DNA from: Actinomyces ruminis
GTDB lineage: Bacteria; Actinomycetota; Actinomycetes; Actinomycetales; Actinomycetaceae
Length of the DNA stretch: 64,000 nucleotides
Direction: 5' to 3'
Assembly: GCF_002154335.2 (NCBI RefSeq)
Contig: NZ_MTPX02000031.1
Span: 1 to 64,000 of the forward strand
The notes beneath the pieces are model-generated. The model was given only the letters and a program-made list of their open reading frames with translations. It did not search any database and was not told the origin of the DNA. This document shows, piece after piece, positions 15,702-28,625 of the stretch. Position numbers and translations under genes: made by a program. How positions within the stretch are numbered: the stretch's first letter is position 1; every line of letters begins with the position of its first letter.

Positions 15702-17288
15702 CTAGGCGAGGGGCCCTACCTGGCCTTCAAGAACATCGGCTACGTCCTTGATGAGCTTATCAAGGTAATCGTGCAGGGCGTGGTCATCGACTATGGCATC
15801 CGCGAGATCCTGGGCGTTTTTCGGACCGGCGTCAGCATCATCTGCGAGTTGGACTGCGATCGTGACGGATCCGCATACGGTTGGTGGTTTGTCCGGCTGG
15901 GAGATTGTCACGCGCTGTCCAAGAATTGCGTCCCAATGCTCTATGTCTTTCGTCTCCACTTGCTGTGTTTCAGAATGAAGCGCCTGTGCTGCTACCCACA
16001 TACTGCCTGGTCGGGTGCCTATCGTCTTGACGACCTCCGGAATCAGGAAGACGTGTCCTTGCTTGCCGATCCTGTGCAGTTGATGGGAGCCGTCGGCAAG
16101 CCATACCGAGACGTCTGACCGTGCAAGCCGGTCGTCCTCCAGGTTTAGCGTGGCGCATCTGGCGAGCGCTCGGGATGTAGTCTCGAGACGGTTGCCGCTG
16201 ACAATGCTGTTGAAGATGTGAGAAACGCGTTCTTGGGGTGACTGGTGGCCGCTGCGGGAGGTGGAGCCGGCACCATAGCGATACAGGTGTTCCTCGATTA
16301 GCGTCGTTGCGTCAGAAAAGTGTTCCGTGATAAGCACCGTGATGCCGAGTTGTTCCCACTGCTGTTCAAGAAGTCGGCGGTATTCCGCGAAATCGGCGTC
16401 CCCCAGATCTCGTAGCCGTCCTAGGCTCTCCTTCGCGATCACCAGGTAGCCCAGAGGTACGCTCTCGGTGGGAGATGTTGAGTCGTCACTGCTGTGTGAG
16501 TTGGATGCGGAGTCTCGTATCGCTTCGAACCATGCCTGTAGATCGTGGTCCGTCAGTGAGTGTCCGACTATGAACAGGCTGAATCCAGATGCTCTGATCG
16601 CCTTCAGTAATTCGAGTTGCCAACTGCTCCTGTCGCGCAGTACTTTATTGTAGTCGGACTGGGTTACTATGGGGTTGGCGGACGTGAATCCTGTGAGAGT
16701 TCCGCCCTCCTGTGACATTGTGTCATCAACATAACCGTGCAGGTGAAATACCGTAGGGCGATAACTGTCGTCTCTACTATCGTAGTTGATGAAAGATTCG
16801 CCCAGTTGGAAATCGTCTCGAACAAAAACCTCTGATCTGTTAAAGTCTGATGCGGCTCCTTCGTGTAGCAGATCGAAATTGGTAGTCAGGATCGGAAGCC
16901 CGTGAGTGGTCGCGTGCCTAGCGAGAATGTGATGCAGGGTGGTTGGAGGTGCGATGGCGTCATCGGGGGTGTTGGCGGGATGCAGCGCGCGGGCTACTAG
17001 CAGTAACCAGGCGTCGTCCGGGTTTTGTCCGCGTCTACGTGAGTCGTCGTAGCATGCCGCGCGGGCGCCTTCCGCGATGACTTGTCTGTTGCCGACAGCG
17101 GCGAGGTATCCGCGCGCGGAGTCTCGATCCGGCAGTGCGCCCGAGCCCACCAGCAGGTTGATTACGAACTCGTCCCAAGTGGGGTAGCCCGCCTCGTAGG
17201 AGACTCCCGAACCGGTGAGAAAGATCAGTTTGTCTGGAGGTGTGACGATGCGATCGATCAGCTCCCGGGTGATGTCGGGGAAGGCCAT
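15702..17288 (-). CDS. SIR2-domain protein, probable NAD-consuming anti-phage defence effector
   Basis: 528 residues. The N-terminal 320 or so residues are a SIR2-like domain: FLTGSGVSYEAGYPTWDEF (nucleotide loop), ILTTNFDLLHEG (catalytic Asn and Asp), VFHLHGYVDD (catalytic His), and FIVGHSLTDHDLQAW. The C-terminal 200 residues are unrecognised and could sense infection. SIR2 proteins of this layout (DSR, Thoeris ThsA and relatives) deplete NAD on phage attack. The gene is visibly less GC-rich than its neighbours (TTCAGTAATTCGAGTTG, TACTTTATTGTAGTCG), suggesting transfer. No TIR or Argonaute partner is nearby; a 64-residue gene follows. Confidence 0.8.
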   Translation of the reverse strand: MAFPDITRELIDRIVTPPDKLIFLTGSGVSYEAGYPTWDEFVINLLVGSGALPDRDSARGYLAAVGNRQVIAEGARAACYDDSRRRGQNPDDAWLLLVARALHPANTPDDAIAPPTTLHHILARHATTHGLPILTTNFDLLHEGAASDFNRSEVFVRDDFQLGESFINYDSRDDSYRPTVFHLHGYVDDTMSQEGGTLTGFTSANPIVTQSDYNKVLRDRSSWQLELLKAIRASGFSLFIVGHSLTDHDLQAWFEAIRDSASNSHSSDDSTSPTESVPLGYLVIAKESLGRLRDLGDADFAEYRRLLEQQWEQLGITVLITEHFSDATTLIEEHLYRYGAGSTSRSGHQSPQERVSHIFNSIVSGNRLETTSRALARCATLNLEDDRLARSDVSVWLADGSHQLHRIGKQGHVFLIPEVVKTIGTRPGSMWVAAQALHSETQQVETKDIEHWDAILGQRVTISQPDKPPTVCGSVTIAVQLADDADAGPKNAQDLADAIVDDHALHDYLDKLIKDVADVLEGQVGPLA

Positions 17289-18911: not shown

Positions 18912-19958
18912 GTGGCCATTGCAACCCCGGAGTCCTATGCCGACATGCTTGACCGTGCCAAGGCCGGCAAGTACGCCATCCCCGCGATCAACGTCACTTC
19001 CTCGCAGACCCTGTCTGCAGCGCTCAAGGGTTTCGCCGACGCCGAGTCCGACGGAATCGTCCAGATCTCCAACGGCGGCGCCGCTACTGGTCCGGCTCCT
19101 CCCGCCTCGACCGGGTGAAGGCTCCATCGCCTTCGCGGCCTACGCCCGCGCCGTTGGTGACCTCTACCCGGTGACGATCGGTCTGCACACCGACCACTGC
19201 CCCAAGAAGATGCTTGAGCCGTGGATCCTCCCGCTGCTCGAGATCGAGGCCGAGCAGGTCAAGCGCGGCGAGCTGCCGATGTTCAACTCCCACATGTGGG
19301 ACGCTCGGCCGAGTCCCTGGATGACAACATCGACATCGCCGTGGACATGCTGGCCCGCGCCAAGGCCGCCAACACCGTCCTGGAGATCGAGATCGGCGCC
19401 GTCGGCGGCGAGGAGGACGGCATCACCGGTGCCGAGAACGCCAACCTGTACACCACGGCCGACGACGCGTTCCGCGCCATCGAGGCCCTCGGCCTGGGCG
19501 AGAACGGCCGCTACATCACCGCCCTGACCTTCGGCAACGTGCACGGCTCCTACAAGCCCGGCCACGTCAAGCTGCGCCCGGAGATCCTCGGCGACATCCA
19601 GAAGGACGTCGCCGCCCGCCTGGGCGACCGCCTGTCCACCAAGGTCGGCGTGAAGGACTCTCCGTTCGACCTGGTCATGCACGGCGGCTCCGGCTCCACC
19701 GACGAGGAGATCGCGACCGCGGTGCGCAACGGCGTCATCAAGATGAACGTCGACACCGACACCCAGTACGCCTTCACCCGTCCGGTTGTGGACCACATGT
19801 TCAAGAACTACGACGGCGTGCTCAAGATCGACGGCGAGGTCGGCAACAAGAAGACCTACGACCCGCGCGCCTGGGGCAAGGCCGCCGAGGAGGGCATGGC
19901 CGCCCGCGTGGTTGAGGCCTGCGAGCGCCTCGGCTCCGTCGGCTCCGCCAAGCGCTGA
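18912..19958 (+). CDS. fba: Class II fructose-bisphosphate aldolase (three frameshifts)
   Basis: About 348 residues from GTG 18912, with AGGAGG eight bases upstream. The signatures are TDHCPKKM (zinc His), NVHGSYKPGHVKL, VMHGGSGSTDEEI and KMNVDTDTQYAFTRP. The frame shifts near 19082 (before YWSGSSRLDRVK), near 19124 (before GSIAFAAYARAV), and near 19308 (before AESLDDNIDIAVDML). Each is fixed by one added base. Three disabling lesions in a central glycolytic gene argue for sequence error, not decay. A strong terminator follows at 20019. Confidence 0.95.
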
Positions 19959-20173: not shown

Positions 20174-21202
20174 ATGAGCGTTTCCAGTAGTTTTCATGGG
20201 CCTGGTGTGCCGGGCGGATTCTCGCCGTCGGCCCAAATGCGTCGTACGCAGAACCCGCCTTCTCCGCGCAGCACCGAGGAGATCGTCGCGCTCGTGCTGC
20301 TCCTCTTGACGTTCATGACGACGTTGGTGCTCGCCCTGATAGCGATCGGATCGCTTGTTGTAGCTAACGCGAGTGGGAACCCGTACGCGATAGTCATGGT
20401 GCTGATCTACGGACTCTTGGACCAGCCCGGCTGGCTGCTCGTCGCGGTAGCGCTGGAGGTGGTGGCTCTGGCTCAAATGCGGCGGCGGCGGCCGGCGAGC
20501 GCGGCGGCAGGGCTGCTTGGTCTCGGTGTGCCGATCCTCCCAGACTTGGCAACGAGTGTGGCCTATTCTCAGTCCGAGGTGACTGTGTTGGGCGGGAGCT
20601 CTGTCGGGGCTGCCTTGAGATTGGTGCTGCTGCCGCTGGTGATCGCGACGGGCGTCGCGGCGGTGATGGCGGGGCGCAGGGGTATGCGTGCTCAACCTGC
20701 TGCTGTATCCGTGGGGGTAGGAGCATCCCTGTTCTTGTTGTTGTTGGCGGTGATCGAGTTTGGGCGCGCGTCGCTGAGCCTGGTGTGGTTCGCCTTCTGG
20801 GAAGCGATAGCTCCGGAAGGGGGGCGAGTATTGGAGATCGGGCTGTGGCTGTTCCCAATGATCATCGATGCTGATGTTGTTTACGGACTGCCCTTCCTCG
20901 GGGTTGGAGGCGTGGTGCTGGTGGCGGCGTGCGCTTTCGGGATGCTGGCCGTGATCGCATGGAGCACCCGGATGTGGAGAGCGTTCATAGCAGGGGCGAT
21001 CGGCGGGCCGGTCGTGCTGTTGGTTCATCACCTGGCGGTTTGGGCGGTTTATGCCGATATCCTGTCCGGCTGGCGCTTGCCGTGGATGGGCTTGACTGTC
21101 TTGGGTCCCGGGATTCTGTTGGCAATGTCCTTGGCCGCAGTAACGCCTGCGGCGCGCCAGTGGTTCACCGCTCCGAGGCACTTCGTCGTCGCGCCACGGT
21201 AG
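20174..21202 (+). CDS. Polytopic membrane protein, paralogue of the gene at 27452-28429
   Basis: 342 residues from ATG 20174. After a polar N-terminus of about 40 residues there are roughly eight transmembrane helices. No known family was recognised. The C-terminal third matches the protein at 27452-28429 (minus strand): GLPFLGVGGVVLVA against GLPFIGAGGVMLVA, AGAIGGPVVLLVHHLAVWAV against AGAVGGPVALLIHHVAVWVV, and GILLAMSLAA in both. The two genes bracket the kinase-ABC locus. A transport, immunity or sensing role for that locus is a guess. Confidence 0.75.
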   Translation: MSVSSSFHGPGVPGGFSPSAQMRRTQNPPSPRSTEEIVALVLLLLTFMTTLVLALIAIGSLVVANASGNPYAIVMVLIYGLLDQPGWLLVAVALEVVALAQMRRRRPASAAAGLLGLGVPILPDLATSVAYSQSEVTVLGGSSVGAALRLVLLPLVIATGVAAVMAGRRGMRAQPAAVSVGVGASLFLLLLAVIEFGRASLSLVWFAFWEAIAPEGGRVLEIGLWLFPMIIDADVVYGLPFLGVGGVVLVAACAFGMLAVIAWSTRMWRAFIAGAIGGPVVLLVHHLAVWAVYADILSGWRLPWMGLTVLGPGILLAMSLAAVTPAARQWFTAPRHFVVAPR

Positions 21203-21310
21203 CGGCGCGGGGCGCTGGAGGGCATGTGTACCTCCTGGAACGGTGGCCCTCCCGCGGCGCGGAGTTGCCGAGTACACTAGTGAGCCCGGCCTAAGGAGAG
21301 TCCCAAGAGC

Positions 21311-21532
21311 GTCACCGGCGAAAGCACACGGCACCGTCGGCCGACGGCCTGGCAAGTGGCCGCGCAGTTCCTGTGGTCGCTCATGGTGGCGCGAGTTCTG
21401 CTGGGGCTGGAAAACGGCAACCTGCTGTCCATCGAGGCGTGGCTCACCCCGCGTGTCTGGCTATATCCACTGTTCTTCGGGGTCATGGGCGTGTACTCCT
21501 ACCTGTACTGGATGCGCCACCGAGACGACTGA
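21311..21532 (+). CDS. 2-TM micro-protein, copy 1 (no standard start codon)
   Basis: Reading from GTC 21311 gives VTGESTRHRRPTAWQVAAQF then LWSLMVARVLLGLENGN, and ends GVYSYLYWMRHRDD at stop 21530-21532. It is homologous along its whole length to the genes at 24148 and 24655. AAGGAG lies at 21293-21298. An in-frame stop at 21281 and the absence of ATG, GTG or TTG before GTG 21356 mean the natural start is missing: a rare GTC start, a sequence error (GTG read as GTC), or a decayed copy. Two helices are predicted, with a basic N-terminus and a charged HRDD tail. Confidence 0.6.
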   Translation, partial: VTGESTRHRRPTAWQVAAQFLWSLMVARVLLGLENGNLLSIEAWLTPRVWLYPLFFGVMGVYSYLYWMRHRDD

Positions 21533-21745
21533 GAAAACCACCTGACGAGGCGTGTTGCGCTCGCCGCCGGCGTGGGAGAATCGGCTCATCGATGCCCTGA
21601 GCTGGGTCTGGGCCTTGGCCCTGTGCTCCGGAGGATGGGGTGGGCTACAGGCGGACGCCGACATTCGTCGATGGCGCCGGCGCGGCTCGCCGTGGAAAAT
21701 GACCACAGGCAACGCTCGATGATGAGATGAAGGGAGCACGCCACG

Positions 21746-21937
21746 ATGAAGCGAGCTACGGCTGGGATGCTACTGGTGGCGGCGCTGGTGGGCGGTGCGG
21801 CGCCAGTAGTGACGGCGGAGCCGGTGGCAGCAGATGGCTTGGCAATATGGGAGGCTTACTCGCGGGGGAGCGATACAGACAGTACCCGTGGGCTGCTGTG
21901 TAGAGTGTTGCCTCAGTGCTGTAGCAACCAAAAATGA
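21746..21937 (+). CDS. 63-residue secreted peptide precursor, coupled to the kinase gene
   Basis: It starts MKRATAGMLLVAALVGGAAP and has a classic signal peptide (basic start, Leu/Val/Ala core, likely cut after VVTA or PVAA). The mature part is about 35 residues with three Cys in the tail (LLCRVLPQCCSNQK). AAGGGAG lies about ten bases before ATG. Its stop overlaps the kinase start in ATGA, which strongly supports translation. Not recognised. It could be the signal sensed by the kinase, a modified bacteriocin-like peptide, or a sensor accessory. Confidence 0.6.
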   Translation: MKRATAGMLLVAALVGGAAPVVTAEPVAADGLAIWEAYSRGSDTDSTRGLLCRVLPQCCSNQK

Positions 21938-23100
21938 TGCCGGGACGGGTGGTTGGGCGCCCATTTGCTGCCGTCAGGACGACCCTAGGGAAAAGAGTGT
22001 CCTATGCGATCATTGCAGCGGTCGCATTGGGTATGGACCTGGGTGCCTGGGACGATGGTAAGTCTGCTGCGTTGCGTACCGCACTGACCACTCTCATGGT
22101 CTCCGGTTCCCTGCTGTTGGGCTGGTATCCGCGGTTCGCCGGAGTACTGATCGTCGTCTGTGCCATCGCTGATGAGGTATTGTCTGCGAATGTCGCGGCT
22201 GCCTCGCTCGCGCTATTGCTTGTTGTGGTGGATTGGTTATCCCGGCGCTGGGACATTGCCGCAGCAGTCGCCGTCATAACGCACACATTGGTTGGTGCCG
22301 CTTCTGCTGGAGACCTCATGTGGTTCCTGCAAGCGCAAGCATTGCTGATGTCGATTGCGGTGATTGTTGGCATGGCACTGCGGCAGTACGAGCACAGGCT
22401 CGCTGAACTGGCGGAGAGAGAGGCTCGGCTACGCTTGGAGCTTGAAAATGAGGAACTGCGGGTTCGCTCCGAGATCGCGTTGACACTACATGACTCGATC
22501 GCAACGGACCTTGCTCAGGTCGTGGTGGCGGGGCAGAGTCTTGCCCGGGACCTGCCCGCCGGTTCCGAAGGGGACCGTGCACATGCCATTGTGGATTCCG
22601 GGCAGCAGGCCATGAAGCATCTTCGCGGACTCATGGATGGGTTGCGTACACCGGATTCCGTGACGGAACGCGAGAATACGGACTTGCACACCGCGATCTC
22701 GGAGTGTCGCCGGATGTTGGAATCGCGAGGAGTCCTGCTTGAGGTTGCCACGTCCGTACCGTGGGACGTGCTGCTGGGAGATCTTGATCATCCGTCGCAG
22801 ACCCTGCTGGTATTGGCGCTGCGTGAGGGTACCATCAACGCCCTCAAATACGCACCGAGTGGATCAACGGTAGTGGTAGAAGTCGAGCAGACTGGTGAGC
22901 ATGTCAACCTTGAGATTTCCTCCGCCAGGCAGGCCGGTGACGGGCAGTCGGCCACAATAGAAGAGATGCGCAGGCAGGGCATGAGCGGAAGCACTGGTCT
23001 CAGCGGTTTGGCCATGCGTGCGGCGCGCCTGGGCGGCAAGGTTGTTTACGGCCCCGCAGGCGATCGTTGGTTGCTTGGAGTGACTGCGCCGGTAGCTTAG
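21934..23100 (+). CDS. Sensor histidine kinase (HisKA_3/NarX-DegS type)
   Basis: 388 residues. The N-terminal half has about five transmembrane helices with short loops and no large sensor domain. A coiled linker (RLAELAEREARLRLELENEE) leads to the dimerisation box RSEIALTLHDSIATDLAQVV with phospho-acceptor His186. The ATPase domain shows the N-box LREGTINALKYAPSG and a G-box-like STGLSGLAMRAARLGGKV. Membrane-embedded sensors of this type often respond to antimicrobial peptides or to a partner transporter. It overlaps the 63-residue peptide gene and is followed 76 bp later by its regulator. Confidence 0.9.
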   Translation: MMPGRVVGRPFAAVRTTLGKRVSYAIIAAVALGMDLGAWDDGKSAALRTALTTLMVSGSLLLGWYPRFAGVLIVVCAIADEVLSANVAAASLALLLVVVDWLSRRWDIAAAVAVITHTLVGAASAGDLMWFLQAQALLMSIAVIVGMALRQYEHRLAELAEREARLRLELENEELRVRSEIALTLHDSIATDLAQVVVAGQSLARDLPAGSEGDRAHAIVDSGQQAMKHLRGLMDGLRTPDSVTERENTDLHTAISECRRMLESRGVLLEVATSVPWDVLLGDLDHPSQTLLVLALREGTINALKYAPSGSTVVVEVEQTGEHVNLEISSARQAGDGQSATIEEMRRQGMSGSTGLSGLAMRAARLGGKVVYGPAGDRWLLGVTAPVA

Positions 23101-23176
23101 GCGCGCACCCGGACGGCGAAGCCGACGTCCCTGTGGGAGTGGAGTCTGTCGGTGACACTGGGGGGAGACTGGCGAC

Positions 23177-23923
23177 ATGACCGCCTCATCCAATACCGCG
23201 CCTTCCTCGAGAAGCGGTCCTCTGCGTGTGCTGCTTGCGGAGGACAATGTCCTTGTTCGTGAGGGCTACGCGGCCATGCTCTCCGATGAACCAGGGATCG
23301 AACTAGTGGCCGCCGTCGAGGACGGATTCGCCGCGCTGCGCGAACTCGACCTGCACCGGGTGGATGTGGCGCTGGTTAACGTGGAGATGCCCCGGATGGA
23401 CGGCGTCGAGGCGGTTCGGGCGATTGCTACGCGCCATCCCGGGGTCGTCGTGGTCATGTTGACCGCCTTTGAGAACAAGGCCCGCCTGGAGGAGGCTCTG
23501 GGGGCGGGGGCGCGCGGATTCCTCACCAAAGACATGGACATCGAGCAGATCGTCGTCGGCGTACGGGATGCCGTGACGGGCAAGACGGTTCTGGGACCGG
23601 AGCCGCTCGAAGTCGCGGCGCAGGGCCTGCGGCGGCGGGCCGTAGAGCGGGAGGCCAACGCCGAGTTCATCCGTGGCGTCGATGCGCTCTCTTCCCGCTA
23701 TGCCGAGGTGTTCAATCTTGTGGCGCGAGGCCTGAGCAACCGGCAGGTGGCAGCAAAGACGGGGCGAACAGAGTCGACCGTGCGCACGTACCTCTCGGAG
23801 ATTCTCCAAACCCTGAACTGCTCCTCTCGCACCGAACTCGCGGTCAAGGCCAACCGCCTCGGGCTGGTGGCGGACGATTCAGCGCGATGGCATCGGCCGA
23901 GTCGCAGAGTGGGGCGTAAGTAG
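23177..23923 (+). CDS. LuxR/NarL-type response regulator with Asn at the phosphorylation site
   Basis: 248 residues. The receiver (about residues 15-135) keeps the acidic pair (LLAEDN), the Thr in VMLTAFEN and the Lys in FLTKDM. However, the phospho-acceptor Asp is Asn68 (DVALVNVEMPRMDG; codon AAC). The HTH domain near the C-terminus has RYAEVFNLVARGLSNRQVAA and TESTVRTYLSEILQTLN, a LuxR-type DNA-binding helix. With Asn it cannot accept phosphate normally, so it may be constitutive, ligand-controlled or controlled by deamidation. Its partner kinase looks intact. Confidence 0.9.
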   Translation: MTASSNTAPSSRSGPLRVLLAEDNVLVREGYAAMLSDEPGIELVAAVEDGFAALRELDLHRVDVALVNVEMPRMDGVEAVRAIATRHPGVVVVMLTAFENKARLEEALGAGARGFLTKDMDIEQIVVGVRDAVTGKTVLGPEPLEVAAQGLRRRAVEREANAEFIRGVDALSSRYAEVFNLVARGLSNRQVAAKTGRTESTVRTYLSEILQTLNCSSRTELAVKANRLGLVADDSARWHRPSRRVGRK

Positions 23924-24070
23924 CAGCCTTGGCGGTTCTCGCTCCCGCTGGGCGCAGCAAGGTTACTGACATTTGTCGGTGTTCCAGGTGAGGGATGAGT
24001 CATACCCTCGTATTGCATCGGCCGGCGGTTGGTCGATGAGCAGGTGACTGTTTTTCAAAGGAGAATCATC

Positions 24071-24151
24071 ATGTCGGTCAAGGGTGCGGGACGTGTGGTA
24101 TTCGGCGTGCAGCTGGCCGCCGCAGCTTTCACCTGCAGAGGAGAGTTGTGA
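24071..24151 (+). CDS. 26-residue leader-like ORF coupled to micro-protein 2
   Basis: ATG 24071 follows AAAGGAG with seven bases spacing. The peptide is MSVKGAGRVVFGVQLAAAAF and then TCRGEL, a short amphipathic or signal-like segment. Its stop (TGA 24149-24151) overlaps the GTG start of the next gene in GTGA. That coupling, plus the ribosome site, suggests real translation, either as a leader that controls the downstream gene or as a micro-peptide in its own right. Confidence 0.4.
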   Translation: MSVKGAGRVVFGVQLAAAAFTCRGEL

Positions 24152-24372
24152 ACTCGATGGCGCCTCAGCGCCGTAGGCCACCGATGTGGCGGCTTGCGGT
24201 GGAGTTCTTTTGGGGGCTGCTGTTGGCTAGGGTGATACTAGGGCTCATTGACGGCGACAACCTGAGGTCGACTGAGGCCTGGTTGACGCCCCGCGCTTGG
24301 GGGTATCCGCTTTTCTTCGCCGTCGTCGGGGTGTACTCCTACCTGTACTGGATGCGTCACCGGGATGACTGA
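24148..24372 (+). CDS. 2-TM micro-protein, copy 2
   Basis: 74 residues from GTG 24148 (ATG 24157 is an alternative). A basic start (MAPQRRRPPMWRL) precedes helix 1 (AVEFFWGLLLARVILGLI), an acidic loop (DGDNLRSTEAW), helix 2 (AWGYPLFFAVVGVYSYLYWM) and the terminal MRHRDD. It is paralogous to copies at 21311 and 24655; the last 14 residues are nearly identical in all three. Positive-inside reasoning puts both ends in the cytosol. Function unknown: a bacteriocin-like peptide, an immunity protein or a small transporter or kinase subunit are all possible. Confidence 0.75.
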   Translation: MNSMAPQRRRPPMWRLAVEFFWGLLLARVILGLIDGDNLRSTEAWLTPRAWGYPLFFAVVGVYSYLYWMRHRDD

Positions 24373-24654
24373 CAGCTCTGGCCAGGAGAACAAAAGCTCG
24401 TACGGTAGCGCGATAGCTCGGGACACGGATGCGATGATGCGGGGAGGACGGGCGCCGGGAGGTGCGCCCCGGCCCCGGTTCGCGCGACGTAAGCGGGCTA
24501 CTGCCGCTCCACGACCGAACCCCTCGGCTCCCACATCCAAGCGCAATCGATCCCAGACAGCCCTGACATACCCCGCACCGGAAGGTCTGAGCAGGCATGG
24601 GCGGAACCGTGAGGCGCCCACTATAATGGAAAGCGTTTACAAAGGAGGTCGCAG

Positions 24655-24879
24655 ATGACCGCTGTTAGCGGACGTGTGCAGCGCCGTCGGCTGACGGCAT
24701 GGCGGTTGGTTGCGCAGTTCTTCTGGGTGCTGCTGGTAGCCAGAATCATCACGGGACTAACACTCACGGGGTTGTCTCTTGATTCTTGGTTGGCTCTTCG
24801 CACTTGGCTCTTCCCGTTGGGCTTTGCGGTTATCGGGGTGTACTCCTACCTGTATTGGATGAGCCACCGAGACGACTGA
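24655..24879 (+). CDS. 2-TM micro-protein, copy 3
   Basis: 74 residues from ATG 24655 behind a strong AAAGGAGG. It has the same layout as copies 1 and 2: basic N-terminus (VQRRRLTAWRL), helix 1 (VAQFFWVLLVARIITGL), short loop, helix 2 (WLFPLGFAVIGVYSYLYWM) and the SHRDD tail. It is 80 bp upstream of the ABC ATPase gene on the same strand, so it may be cotranscribed with it. The AT-rich stretch just upstream (ACTATAATGG) is a plausible -10 region for its own promoter. Confidence 0.8.
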   Translation: MTAVSGRVQRRRLTAWRLVAQFFWVLLVARIITGLTLTGLSLDSWLALRTWLFPLGFAVIGVYSYLYWMSHRDD

Positions 24880-24959
24880 GACTTCCGTCCGATTGGACGC
24901 GACTGGAATCACCCTGTGAGTCCGGCAGGTGAATCAGGGCCTGGTCAGGGGATTCCCGC

Positions 24960-25811
24960 ATGGCTGGGCCCGGGGAATCGGCGTACAACCGAAACATGGA
25001 GACGCTGACGTCGGATGGGCCAGGCACCCAGCACCGCCAAGGCAAACGGTCGCGTGAAGATACCCGGCCGGTCGTCACCTTGGACCAGGTGTCGCGAGAA
25101 TTCGGCAGGCTTCAGGCACTCGCCCCGCTCGATCTGGAGGTCGGTGTGGGGCGAGTGCTCGGCCTGCTTGGCCCCAACGGCGCCGGCAAGACCACGCTGA
25201 TGTCGATCATGGCCTGTGAGCTGGCGCCGAGCACCGGGGAGGTGACGGTCGGCGGCACTCTGGTTACCGACACCTCTGCCGCCCGTCGGGCCCGCCGTCG
25301 GCTCGCGCTGATGCCCCAGCGCCCGGCGTCGGTCCCGGGATTCAGTGCTCTCGACACGGTCGAGTACGCGGCCTGGGCCAAGGGCCTGCCCACACGCGGG
25401 CGGCGGGAGCCCTGCATGAACGCGCTCGACCGTGTGGGGCTGGCGGCGCAGGCCAAACGGCCGTTGCGCACCCTGTCCGGCGGCATGGTGCAGCGCGTGC
25501 ACCTGGCCGCCGCTCTCGTCAGCCGCCCGGCCCTGCTGCTCCTCGATGAGCCGACCGTGGGCTTGGACCCCGCTCAGCGCATCGCCTTCCGCGCCCTGGT
25601 CGAGGAGCTCGAAGACACCGCCACTGTGCTGGCCACCCACTTGGTCGAGGACGTGCGCGCACTCAGTGACGAGATCATGGTGCTCGACGCCGGGCAGGTC
25701 CGCTTCCGCGGCACCACGGCGGAGTCGGAGGCGAGGGCAACATCCGACGCCCCCGGAGACAACCAGCTCGAGCGTGGCTACATGAGCGTGCTCAGTCAGG
25801 AGCAGTCATGA
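24960..25811 (+). CDS. ABC transporter ATPase (bacitracin/antimicrobial-peptide export type)
   Basis: 283 residues from ATG 24960 (ATG 24996 is possible). It has Walker A GPNGAGKTT, a Q-loop with LMPQRPASVPGF, the signature LSGGMVQRVHLA, Walker B LLLLDEPTVGLDP, and the switch His in VLATHLVED. It is a stand-alone cytosolic ATPase of the CcmA/BcrA/LanF type, which power two-subunit exporters giving self-protection from antimicrobials. Its stop overlaps the next start (ATGA). A two-component system and membrane micro-proteins upstream fit a sensing and export unit. Confidence 0.9.
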   Translation: MAGPGESAYNRNMETLTSDGPGTQHRQGKRSREDTRPVVTLDQVSREFGRLQALAPLDLEVGVGRVLGLLGPNGAGKTTLMSIMACELAPSTGEVTVGGTLVTDTSAARRARRRLALMPQRPASVPGFSALDTVEYAAWAKGLPTRGRREPCMNALDRVGLAAQAKRPLRTLSGGMVQRVHLAAALVSRPALLLLDEPTVGLDPAQRIAFRALVEELEDTATVLATHLVEDVRALSDEIMVLDAGQVRFRGTTAESEARATSDAPGDNQLERGYMSVLSQEQS

Positions 25812-26750
25812 GCGGCGTGCTGCGCATCGAAATGCGCCGCTGTCTGCTGGTGCGCATAGCGCCGTTGGCCGCCGCGGGGCTGGTGGCCTGATGCTCAGTG
25901 ACCGTCACCAGTGGCAGGGTGTGTGGCCTGCTTCCTCAGGCTCGCTATTACCCAGGGCACGGGTGTCGGCACGCCGGAGAGCCGCTTGACCCGTATCTTC
26001 CTCTCCGGCCACGCCTGGGTGGAATTGACACCCGCAGGGGTGACGCTCGCCGCCGTTGAGGCCGCGATTGTGATTGCCGCCGCTCTGGCGCTGCCGGGTC
26101 TGCTCGCCGCTCTGCGAGCCCGTCGTGAGCGCACCGGCTTCCCGTGGCCGCGGCGAACCCGAGTGGCCGTCACCGCGGGCTGTGCGGTGTGCGTGCTCGG
26201 GGCCGGCCTCGTGCTGACCGGTCCGCCGCTGACGGTCGAGCGGGCTATTCCCGAACATCCCGTGTGCACCGATACGCAGCTGCGGCTGTGCGTGTGGCCC
26301 GAGGACGCCGCCCGGCTGCCCGCGCTGGCCACGCTCGCCGAACGGGCCAGTGCCCAGGCGGATGCGCTCGGCCTGGAGCTCCCCGAACACGTCAGCGCGT
26401 ACGGGCTGGAGCCGGGGGCGTCGAGCTTCATCATCGAGTCCGATTCCGTTTGGTTCGCCGCCGACGACCTGGCGGGAATCATCGTCGGCTCGGCGGTGTC
26501 GGTCGATTGCCTGCCGACGGACGCGGATCCTGGCGTGGAGGACTTTTATCGGGCGTTCGGAGAACTCCAGGGGCTGCTCGAGCTGCGCCTGCAGGCGGCC
26601 GACAGCCGCCCCGCGGGCATGGGGGACACCAGAGCGATCGACCACGCGGAGATCGCACGCATAGCCAAGTCCGATGCGGCCACGCAGGACGCCTGGATGC
26701 AAGAGCGCCTCGACACCATGCGTGACATTGCCGCGGAGCAGTGCCAATGA
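25808..26750 (+). CDS. ABC transporter membrane subunit with extracytoplasmic domain (frameshifted)
   Basis: Starts MSGVLRIEMRRCLLVRIAPL in one frame, then LSDRHQWQGVWPASSGSL in a second, then LAITQGTGVGTPESRL onward in a third. This implies two one-base losses, near 25888 and 25935. The third frame (to 26750) has two helices (AAVEAAIVIAAALALPGLLA and VTAGCAVCVLGAGLVL) and a soluble part with VCTDTQLRLCVWPEDAARL. That Cys-x-Trp-Pro segment recalls the extracytoplasmic domain of actinobacterial lantibiotic-type exporters. It is the likely partner of the ATPase it overlaps. Confidence 0.65.
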
Positions 26751-27340
26751 GGCTCTACGTGCGCTCCCGCAGGCTGCTCGCGGCCTGCGTGCTCATGGCG
26801 ATGCTCGCAGCCATCAGCGCAGTGAGCGGCACCAACATGCTGACGCTCGTATCCCGCGGCGACCCCGTGGCGGTGCCCTACCTGCTCGTGCTCGACGCCT
26901 TCATCGCGGTACTGGCGGTCGGCAGCCTGGCCTCCCCGGTGCCCGCCATGGACCGCGGGGACGTCGGCGTCGTCGCCCGGGCCAGGTGGCTGCACCTGGC
27001 GGGCATGGGGGCGCTGGGTCTGGTGCTCGTGGTGGCGGCGTCCCTGCCCCGTTCGGGCATGGGCGCCCTGGAGGCGGGGCGCGCCTACCTCGCCTGGCTC
27101 GGCCTGGCACTGCTGGCCGCCGGCATCCTCCGCGAATCCCTGGCGGCAATCGGACCGTTGGCGGGATTCTTCGTCATCGCCTGGTTCGGGCACCCGGCGG
27201 GAGTGCCCGCGTCGTGGAACTGGGGGCAGGCGCCCGCTACTGTGTTGACGTCCTGGTTGGTCGCCGTCGGGCTGCTGGCAGTCGGCCTGCTCGTCTGCGC
27301 CCGCCGCTGGCGCGGGGAGCTCGGTCTGCCGCGCCCATGA
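26747..27340 (+). CDS. Polytopic membrane protein, second ABC membrane subunit
   Basis: 197 residues from ATG 26747; the ATGA overlap with the previous stop favours this start over 26741. Six hydrophobic segments are visible, for example LLAACVLMAMLAAISAVSG and AYLAWLGLALLAAGILRESL. No conserved family was recognised. Its tight coupling to the ATPase and the first membrane subunit points to a three-gene exporter. It ends two bases before an 84-bp palindromic repeat that probably terminates transcription. Confidence 0.75.
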   Translation: MRLYVRSRRLLAACVLMAMLAAISAVSGTNMLTLVSRGDPVAVPYLLVLDAFIAVLAVGSLASPVPAMDRGDVGVVARARWLHLAGMGALGLVLVVAASLPRSGMGALEAGRAYLAWLGLALLAAGILRESLAAIGPLAGFFVIAWFGHPAGVPASWNWGQAPATVLTSWLVAVGLLAVGLLVCARRWRGELGLPRP

Positions 27341-27341
27341 T

Positions 27342-27425
27342 AGGAACACGCCCTTCACCTCTGGTACGAGCTTTTGCACTCTGCTCCGATGGGTATACCC
27401 GCACACCAGGGTGCAAAGGCTCGCA
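27342..27425. repeat. 84-bp direct repeat with internal hairpin, copy 1
   Basis: Differs from the copy at 28513-28596 at about three positions. It holds the stem GAGCTTTTGCACTCTG (27368-27383) with CAGGGTGCAAAGGCTC (27407-27422), and the palindrome GGGTATACCC in the loop. It lies between convergent genes and could act as a terminator. The two copies bracket the membrane gene at 27452-28429. Confidence 0.85.
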
Positions 27426-27451
27426 TCAGCCGGTTGGTGCACTCCAGCGTC

Positions 27452-28429
27452 TTATGAGCCGGCTGTCACCGGCGCCACGGTTGTCCCTACCGCCGACCGG
27501 GCAGCCAGGGACATCGCTAACAGAATCCCGGATTGCAGGACGAGGATCGCCAACGGCATCCACTGCGATCCCCGGCCGAACAGAGCGCTGTTCGACACCA
27601 CCCAAACCGCTACATGGTGAATCAGCAGGGCTACCGGTCCACCCACCGCCCCTGCCAGGAACAGCCCTCGAATCCGGAAGGCCGACGCCGTCACGGCCAG
27701 CAGCGCGAGTAGGAACACCGCGACCAGCATCACGCCACCGGCACCGATGAACGGCAGACCGTGTTCGGAGCCGTTCAGGTTGACCTCCGTGGACAGCCAT
27801 GGGCCCACCGCCGCGTCGATTCGCACGGGCGCGTACCAGCAGAGGCTCGCTACATACTGGTAATTGAGCCATCCTCGGATCAGCTGAATCGCGGAGAAGA
27901 CGAGCAGGAACAGTGACACCCCCAGGCCCAACGCGACGGACACGGGGCGGGGCCGGGGCATCCGCCGTCCCGCCACCGCGGCGGTAATGCCGGTCGGGAT
28001 TACCGCGACGAGCAAGGCCACCAACAGGGCGACGTCGCCACCAACGCTTTTCCCCATTACCTGAAATGCCTCATCTGTTCCTGTGAACGCGATCGCGTAC
28101 GTAAGCGGTCCGCTGACCCACAATCCCGCTACGGCCGCGCTCGCCTGTCGGTGCTTCATGAGCTGTACCAGCCCGACCGTCTCAAGTACGAGCGTGGTGT
28201 ACAGCCAGCCGCTCATGTTGCTGAGGGCCTCGACCAATTCCCAGATCGCGTCCGGCCCGTCTCCTCCGGTGGAGACCTCGGGCCTGCTCCGCCTGACGTG
28301 GTCAACCACGACCAGAAGGGTTATCAGCATTGTCATGACGATGAGCGCGAGCGCAGCTCGCTCCGGAGCAGTGCGTCGGCCAGCCAGGCGGTGCGCGACA
28401 TTGCCGGATACCTCGATGGGAGTGGACAT
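27452..28429 (-). CDS. Polytopic membrane protein, paralogue of the gene at 20174-21202
   Basis: 325 residues from ATG 28429 with AGAGG nine bases upstream (ATG 28438 and TTG 28465 are alternatives). About eight transmembrane helices. It is homologous to the protein at 20174-21202, strongest in the C-terminal third (GLPFIGAGGVMLVA, AGAVGGPVALLIHHVAVW, GILLAMSLAA). It is inverted relative to the rest of the locus and lies between two 84-bp direct repeats. A fragment of a third copy's C-terminus is found just outside at 28626. Function unknown. Confidence 0.75.
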   Translation of the reverse strand: MSTPIEVSGNVAHRLAGRRTAPERAALALIVMTMLITLLVVVDHVRRSRPEVSTGGDGPDAIWELVEALSNMSGWLYTTLVLETVGLVQLMKHRQASAAVAGLWVSGPLTYAIAFTGTDEAFQVMGKSVGGDVALLVALLVAVIPTGITAAVAGRRMPRPRPVSVALGLGVSLFLLVFSAIQLIRGWLNYQYVASLCWYAPVRIDAAVGPWLSTEVNLNGSEHGLPFIGAGGVMLVAVFLLALLAVTASAFRIRGLFLAGAVGGPVALLIHHVAVWVVSNSALFGRGSQWMPLAILVLQSGILLAMSLAARSAVGTTVAPVTAGS

Positions 28430-28512: not shown

Positions 28513-28596
28513 AGGAACACGTCCTTCACCTCTGGTACGAACTTTTGCACCCTGCTCCGATGGGTATACCCGCACACCAGGGTGCAAAGGCTCGCA
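28513..28596. repeat. 84-bp direct repeat with internal hairpin, copy 2
   Basis: Same orientation and length as the copy at 27342-27425, offset by 1171 bp. The stem TTTGCACCCTG pairs perfectly with CAGGGTGCAAA. It lies upstream of the inverted membrane gene and downstream of vapC. Confidence 0.85.
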
Positions 28597-28625
28597 GCAG
28601 GGAGCAAAGGGTCGTAGTAGGCGAG

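Follow-up and report, generated by a model that had tools for sequence, protein, structure and literature searches.

A candidate peptide-switched bacteriocin/immunity island, apparently disarmed, in Actinomyces ruminis

The 64-kb window analysed here (the whole stretch of 64,000 nucleotides, positions 1 to 64,000 of contig NZ_MTPX02000031.1 of Actinomyces ruminis) contains at 20174-28429 a locus composed of a small secreted-type peptide, a sensor histidine kinase, a response regulator, three membrane microproteins (mic1, mic2 and mic3) and an ATP-binding cassette (ABC) exporter. Comparison with related genomes suggests that this locus is a peptide-switched bacteriocin/immunity island that has been disarmed in this genome, a reading to which we give a probability of about 0.6. 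The comparison drew on 213 genomes of the Actinomyces family and on 396 genomes of the order for a wider kinase search; genomes are labelled G, loci L and contigs C. Named relatives of the locus were found in Actinomyces glycerinitolerans, A. ruminicola and A. succiniciruminis; the first of these, as the rumen type strain G10 (L025), carries the circuit together with open effector A and mic2 genes. Coordinates are window positions on the forward (+) strand unless stated otherwise.

The Cys-loop peptide, its kinase and the regulator

The peptide gene (21746..21937) encodes 63 residues ending in CRVLPQCC, a putative signal peptide/pheromone precursor. Its N-terminus resembles a signal peptide, as judged by hydropathy and inspection, and its end overlaps the start of the kinase gene in an ATGATG at 21934, bearing out an earlier description, made from the sequence alone, of a secreted 63-residue peptide coupled to a kinase. 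The peptide open reading frame (ORF) looks coding from sequence comparison: among four close copies all lengths stayed in frame, synonymous differences (pS) exceeded nonsynonymous differences (pN) in 12 of 12 comparisons, and the leader was less changed than the remainder. The kinase (21934..23100) is read as a NarL-type sensor histidine kinase with a membrane N-terminus, in which the H-box and ATP-site residues are kept. Its scores of 21.3 bits for HisKA_3 and 17.5 bits for HATPase_c lie below the Pfam gathering thresholds (24 and 26.4, respectively); H186, N302 and several glycines were invariant across eight kinases.

The peptide is a member of an unnamed family of signal-peptide-bearing peptides whose C-terminus bears a C-x-x-[F/L]-P-(x)-C loop and which are encoded directly 5' of NarL-type kinases. 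A kinase-alignment search of the family genomes showed that 18 of the 30 best kinase loci had an upstream ORF whose product starts like a signal peptide and has a Cys...P...Cys loop at its C-terminus, a count that leaves out secondary entries and two entries lacking a start codon (L084 and L094). When a strict pattern was run over both strands of 48 loci (836 kb), 21 ORFs were returned, 20 of them directly 5' of a kinase on the kinase strand, against 1.4 per replicate in a Markov control. A set of 56 further kinase loci was drawn from the same search, leaving out contig ends, fragments and places already covered; the strict pattern matched at 26 of them and a relaxed pattern at 35, including one match that looks spurious and is still counted (L203), with 0 and 1 matches, respectively, on the opposite strand. 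Most peptide cores (41 of 49) had ten residues, namely C, any residue, mostly L/F/V, F (25) or L (11), P, often N/S, mostly L, P (27), any residue and C, and the remaining eight, those of the window clade included, had eight residues. The peptide-kinase pairs span eleven genus labels, and nine kinase relatives from outside the family, found among the order genomes, had no such peptide. None of ten peptides compared with Pfam and NCBIfam reached a family cut-off. Since these ten small ORFs and both effectors described below match no curated family, the peptide signature offers a quick finder of such loci. The window genome itself has two further peptide-kinase sets, on contigs C12 (L159) and C22 (L160), with the cores CTLLPSSWLC and CRYLPGPLMC.

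Of 20 larger kinase loci, 18 had a regulator gene within ~1 kb after the kinase, and in the other two the contig ended. In the window it lies at 23177..23923 and encodes a receiver (REC) domain and a LuxR-type helix-turn-helix (HTH), with scores of 87.9 bits for Response_reg (cut-off 30.2) and 44.8 bits for GerE (23.5). The window copy has Asn at the phospho-acceptor position, where seven of seven relatives have Asp. The non-phosphorylatable regulator noted earlier is hence a peculiarity of this copy and not a trait of the system.

Kinase-regulator relatives were also seen near lipoprotein/adaptor-like genes at L069, L070, L071, L114, L115 and L117, several of them with a MacB-type ABC, and these loci perhaps represent another target class of the circuit. 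Pfam was applied here to the ABC and adaptor proteins of L114 only and to the small secreted proteins of L069, L071, L115 and L117; the first three of the latter matched PG_binding_1 and that of L117 matched I36. A lactococcin 972 identity for the proteins beside MacB-type relatives was considered and rejected, the secreted proteins of G037, G033 and G026 matching PG_binding_1 and that of G186 matching I36. The MacB-type protein of G185 scored 201 bits against the TIGR03608 cut-off of 254.85, below the lactococcin 972 model.

The 14-bp element and the genes that follow it

A 14-bp near-palindrome, GACATTCGTCGATG, is present at 21660..21673, 72 nt 5' of the peptide ATG, and is a candidate site for the regulator. 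It was derived from 10-mers common to the region upstream of the peptide and the region after the regulator; a second copy with two mismatches, GACATTTGTCGGTG, lies at 23968..23981 before the operon that begins with the effector remnant and mic2. These were the only two sites at up to two mismatches in the window, both where expected, and five Markov replicates gave 0. Exact copies precede the peptide in G010 and G024. The distance from the end of the element to the peptide start is 72 nt in the window and in G010, G024 and G025, each of which also has the element ahead of the following operon. A third copy in G025 precedes the ABC genes that stand apart there, and G043 has one after the regulator. 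At up to two mismatches the element was thus found in the kinase-bearing loci of G010, G024, G025 and G043, and none was found in the near-clade loci that lack the kinase (G028, G034 and G041). G037 has one at three mismatches.

The consensus GACATTCSTCGRTR preceded 18 of 52 peptides at up to two mismatches, whereas shuffled consensus sequences gave a mean of 0.5 and a maximum of 4 in 200. The 52 peptides came from 54 loci, two of which had no peptide by rule, and in L182 another ORF was taken. Across 12 whole genomes, all selected for carrying the circuit, there were 12 exact-consensus sites, 11 of them at peptide-kinase loci, and a reversed-pattern control gave 0. As the exact element is nearly absent elsewhere in these genomes, the circuit appears to be local. 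These sequence comparisons support the view that the common element ties the kinase-regulator pair to the microproteins and ABC genes where both occur. An inverted-repeat search of the intergenic regions found nothing consistent.

In G010 and G025 a secreted-type gene, effector A (197 and 196 aa, 84% identical), lies between the second element and mic2, and its stop overlaps the mic2 start. Effector A has a signal-like start and a Cys-bounded, hydrophobic C-terminus (ALC...CRGEL). The window has a 26-codon ORF in its place (24071..24151) that consists of the joined two ends of the 197-codon gene; it is 513 nt shorter, in frame, and its stop still overlaps the mic2 start. The loss of most of this gene made effector A invisible to the earlier reading. 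Homologues or fragments of effector A were found in 12 of the 213 genomes. Judged against a shuffled null, effector A stood directly 5' of six of 22 microprotein copies, intact in G010, G025 and G016 and as a remnant in the window, G193 and G006; in G166 a tail at the right place fell below the null. A homologue was also found ~1 kb from peptide-kinase genes in G131, and a weaker match (E 1.2e-7) beside such genes in G054. In three genomes the effector was reduced and the overlapping or adjacent small membrane gene was open, the pattern that would be left by a toxin-immunity pair after loss of the toxin.

A second secreted-type gene, effector B (112 aa, signal-like start), lies between the element and the ABC ATPase gene in G024 and G025. 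A relative (47% identical) directly precedes the ATPase in G043, and effector B tails above a shuffled null were found before the ATPase in G033, G037 and G047, three of eight further ABC loci. Neither effector gave a Pfam or NCBIfam match. Two observations on other small secreted-type proteins were made at related loci. Such proteins follow an element-like site in G144, where a 78-aa membrane-type ORF comes next, and in G150; and a 48%-identical pair (L126:6125-6745 and L161:6663-7169) lies beside peptide-kinase loci of different genera, with weak similarity to effector A in the first member.

The gene after the effector A remnant, mic2 (24148..24372), encodes a 74-aa membrane microprotein and putative immunity protein. 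It has paralogues of the same length in mic3 (24655..24879; 56% identical) and mic1 (21305..21532; 62% identical), the latter with AAG where five of five relatives have ATG; a start at a GTG further in is possible. The paralogy of the three was as described earlier, and the two transmembrane spans attributed to each are plausible only, since a hydropathy threshold gave one clear membrane span in mic2 and mic3 and none in mic1. Microprotein matches, obtained with an alignment of 11 copies, occurred in 18 of 213 family genomes and seven of 36 genera. The eight genomes outside the genus had single copies with no kinase-regulator match and no ABC trio of this kind within the 4.8 to 16 kb read, two of them having other ABC ATPases some kb away; three distant Actinomyces copies were likewise without kinase-regulator or ABC trio. 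Even among the seven near-clade genomes, one had a microprotein alone, one a microprotein with a permease fragment only, and one a microprotein with ABC genes and no kinase. These results indicate that the microprotein is not tied to the kinase or the ABC genes: outside the near clade the expected co-occurrence mostly broke down, and the microproteins were rejected as an invariant core. A distant microprotein occupies one conserved place in three Actinomyces (L022, L023 and L024), where the effector is intact only in G016 and degraded in G006.

The ABC genes follow. The ATPase (24960..25811; Pfam ABC_tran 101.4 bits) and the 197-aa second permease subunit, perm2 (26747..27340), are open, as the earlier description of an ATPase with two membrane subunits had it, whereas the first subunit, perm1, is broken in the window into an N-terminal fragment (25808..25891) and a C-terminal fragment (25911..26750) that follows an internal deletion and corresponds to the part where DUF7224 lies in intact relatives. 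Perm1 is open and 431-432 aa long in four relatives; the window gene is 353 nt shorter than that of G010, and its ends are in different frames. Perm1 relatives occurred in 13 of 213 genomes. The ATPase, perm1 and perm2 were found together without an adjoining circuit in G033, G007, G037, G043 and G047, and G155, of another genus, has a kinase-regulator-ATPase-permease-permease row on a contig that ends before any peptide position; this row likewise supports a link between kinase and ABC genes. The ATPase scored 111.4 bits against the TIGR03740 cut-off of 309.75, below the lantibiotic-protection model. The permeases could not be placed in a known immunity-permease family either: intact perm1 of two relatives matched DUF7224 only (31.3 and 33 bits, cut-off 27), and perm2 matched no family.

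We compared the neighbourhoods of six near relatives within the genus. A fructose-bisphosphate aldolase gene and a PIN protein gene flank the set in G010, G024, G025 and G034, as in the window, and the flank of G028 and G041 is common with the window on the PIN side only. As for gene content, G010 has the peptide-kinase-regulator genes, two microproteins, the ABC trio and memB; G025 has a circuit of the same type with its ABC genes several kb apart from the rest; G024 has the circuit, the ABC genes and a single microprotein on the far side; G041 has a microprotein and ABC genes, G028 a microprotein and a permease fragment, and G034 a microprotein only. Genes seem to have been gained and lost repeatedly at this site. 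Because relatives carry overlapping sets of the window's genes at the same site, and because the peptide and the element are far above their controls, the assemblage exceeds chance.

Proposed mechanism, objections and alternatives

We propose that the 63-aa precursor would exit the cell by means of its signal-peptide-like leader and that its C-terminal Cys loop would be the signal. The adjacent NarL-type kinase, by analogy with its family, would sense the peptide and phosphorylate the LuxR-type regulator, which may in turn act at the 14-bp element before its own peptide-kinase-regulator genes, making the circuit autoregulated, and before the next operon. In intact relatives the latter carries effector A with the overlapping microprotein gene, the proposed immunity protein, and/or effector B, and the ABC exporter encoded directly after effector B would protect from this effector or export it. 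We infer killing, immunity, secretion, peptide-kinase binding and regulator binding from sequence. The window copy appears disarmed: effector A is down to 26 codons, effector B is absent, perm1 has a large deletion, the regulator has Asn for Asp, and mic1 is without its usual start, with mic2, mic3, the ATPase and perm2 remaining open. Given the state of both effectors, perm1 and the regulator, the island is probably either silent or confined to immunity, provided that assembly errors have not misled us. Solo microproteins elsewhere would be orphan immunity genes.

The preliminary description had proposed a peptide signalling or bacteriocin-immunity system built round the microproteins. The evidence leads to such a system, but not to one built round the microproteins alone, an effector or its remnant directly preceding six of 22 copies and the kinase going with the peptide. 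A wider proposition, for which we see even odds, is that Cys-loop pheromones (core C-x-x-[F/L]-P-[N/S]-[L/F]-P-x-C) and their dedicated NarL-type kinases form a main private-signalling system of the Actinomyces family, that in one branch this system activates bacteriocin/immunity islands via a dedicated operator, and that strains repeatedly excise the toxin and keep the overlapping immunity gene, the window being one such case.

Several results weigh against the disarmed-island reading. The element is missing at two mismatches from kinase-bearing G033 and G155 and, at up to two mismatches, from before 34 of the 52 peptides, and its consensus was taken in part from loci later counted. No peptide was found by the strict or relaxed pattern at 21 of the 56 further kinases. 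Peptide divergence tracked that of the kinase (rank correlations of 0.36 and 0.25 with the catalytic and the sensor part, respectively), and no sensor-specific tracking was detected (partial rank correlation 0.06, permutation p ~0.3, one of the 19 peptide cores, that of G150, being wrongly cut in this test), leaving peptide-sensor co-divergence beyond ancestry unsupported. None of the 20 larger kinase loci had a mic, perm1 or perm2 match, which makes these targets special to a few genomes. Effector A was undetected before 16 of the 22 microprotein copies, and tblastn at E 0.01 did not recover it in the G054 stretch; no effector B tail was found in G155, G041, G010 or the window, and that of G007 was below the null. 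As the effectors match no family, the term bacteriocin rests on the leader, the small size, the overlap with a small membrane gene and the repeated loss. The window genome, finally, is incomplete, and its aldolase gene (18912-19958) is frame-broken by three single-base deletions relative to G010, which means that some lesions in the window may be sequencing or assembly errors.

That last point favours the most serious of the alternatives, namely that some or all of the decay is an assembly artefact and that the organism has intact effector, perm1 and regulator genes. The assembly (3.4 Mb in 99 contigs, 82.6% complete, 4.1% contamination) would allow for this, but two internal deletions of 513 and 353 nt and two substitutions are of a different type from the errors in the aldolase gene, and effector remnants are present in other genomes too, including the single-contig G193; we consider an artefact possible but doubtful. 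The effector A remnants also bear on the suggestion that effector A and its microprotein are a secreted envelope protein and a membrane partner whose expression the peptide would time, with neither toxin nor immunity involved. That neither matches a family at cut-off suits this suggestion, yet three genomes have only a remnant of the effector and, directly after it, a small membrane gene that is still open. Loss of a toxin with immunity kept agrees with this better than loss of a function common to both proteins, and we regard an envelope role as unlikely.

A detoxification module, in which the kinase would sense foreign antimicrobial peptides or envelope stress, the peptide would modulate the kinase in an accessory role, and resistance would come from the ABC exporter and microproteins with no self-made bacteriocin, would account for a kinase-regulator pair adjoining an ABC exporter, for the kinase relative beside a MacB-type ABC and an adaptor with a peptidoglycan-binding domain in G185, and for the retention of the ATPase, perm2 and microproteins in the window without an effector. 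It does not account for the secreted-type genes, partly lost, that directly precede the microprotein and the ATPase in relatives, and the ATPase score lies far under the lantibiotic-protection cut-off; such a module thus seems rather improbable to us. Least probable is the simplest form of the earlier reading, with the 63-aa peptide itself antimicrobial and the microproteins or ABC genes its immunity. The peptide is small, secreted-type and Cys-bearing and adjoins kinase and export genes, but it goes with the kinase, the 20 larger kinase loci without mic or permease matches being mostly peptide-bearing, and its core is conserved across genera.

Known systems and surroundings of the locus

The best-known examples of peptide quorum sensing come from Firmicutes, whose class II bacteriocin loci of the Blp and plantaricin type have a peptide pheromone with a double-glycine leader and a LytTR-type regulator. 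The present locus resembles these in its small secreted peptide, kinase and regulator, in the repeated sites before regulatory and bacteriocin operons, and in its small putative immunity proteins; it differs in its signal-peptide-like leader and Cys-loop tail, its NarL-type kinase and LuxR-type regulator, and its restriction, as sampled, to one family. Agr-type cyclic peptide systems likewise pair a cyclisable Cys peptide with an adjacent membrane kinase, but here the peptide has two or three Cys (a possible disulfide) and a signal-peptide-like leader, the kinase and regulator families differ, and a Pfam and NCBIfam scan of window genes revealed no obvious AgrB-like gene. Effector A resembles a secreted proprotein of ~200 aa whose hydrophobic C-terminus is bounded by Cys, and its putative immunity protein is a membrane protein, a combination that recalls SdpC/SdpI of Bacillus. 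The present locus is set apart from that system by effectors without a Pfam or NCBIfam match, an immunity protein of only 74 aa and peptide-type control. An ATPase with two membrane subunits beside a kinase-regulator pair is reminiscent of LanFEG/BcrAB immunity exporters, unlike which the window ATPase is far below the family cut-off, perm1 has DUF7224 only and perm2 has no match.

Within the genus, the actifensin locus of Actinomyces ruminicola is a bacteriocin locus that, like the proposed island, has ABC genes and a LuxR-family regulator (PMC6989792). It encodes a 37-aa defensin-like peptide and has other gene content, and the term histidine kinase is absent from the text describing it (PMC6989792).

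A literature search, judged by titles and abstract openings and covering few subscription papers, found no such system described for Actinomyces or its family, which is weak evidence of novelty. The peptide-kinase pairs provide testable ligand-receptor-operator sets and candidate new bacteriocins with immunity genes, and the natural series of intact, disarmed and immunity-only loci may show how toxin loci decay into orphan immunity.

Gene order and coordinates across 20174-28429 were as first described. The three ATGA/GTGA gene overlaps counted earlier are real but too few, overlaps being present at 21934, 24148 (GTGA), 24365, 24655, 25808 and 26747; those at 24365 and 24655 depend on orf97 (24365..24658), a doubtful reading frame between mic2 and mic3 that has a same-place match in G025 only and is possibly no gene. 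Near the island, a 528-aa protein that is SIR2-like by reading alone (15702-17288) has an 88%-identical relative on the same side in G034. The homologous membrane proteins reported at both ends of the locus were recovered: memA (20174..21202), an orphan membrane protein, and memB (27452..28429, reverse strand) are 40% identical. Their homologues occurred in three of 213 genomes, and the memA-like copies of two of these, G010 and G024, contain stop codons. MemB lies between two copies of an 88-bp direct repeat (27342-27429 and 28513-28600; 95% identical) with inverted-repeat arms. The repeat has 16 matches genome-wide and resembles a miniature inverted-repeat transposable element (MITE) or a repetitive extragenic palindromic (REP) element.

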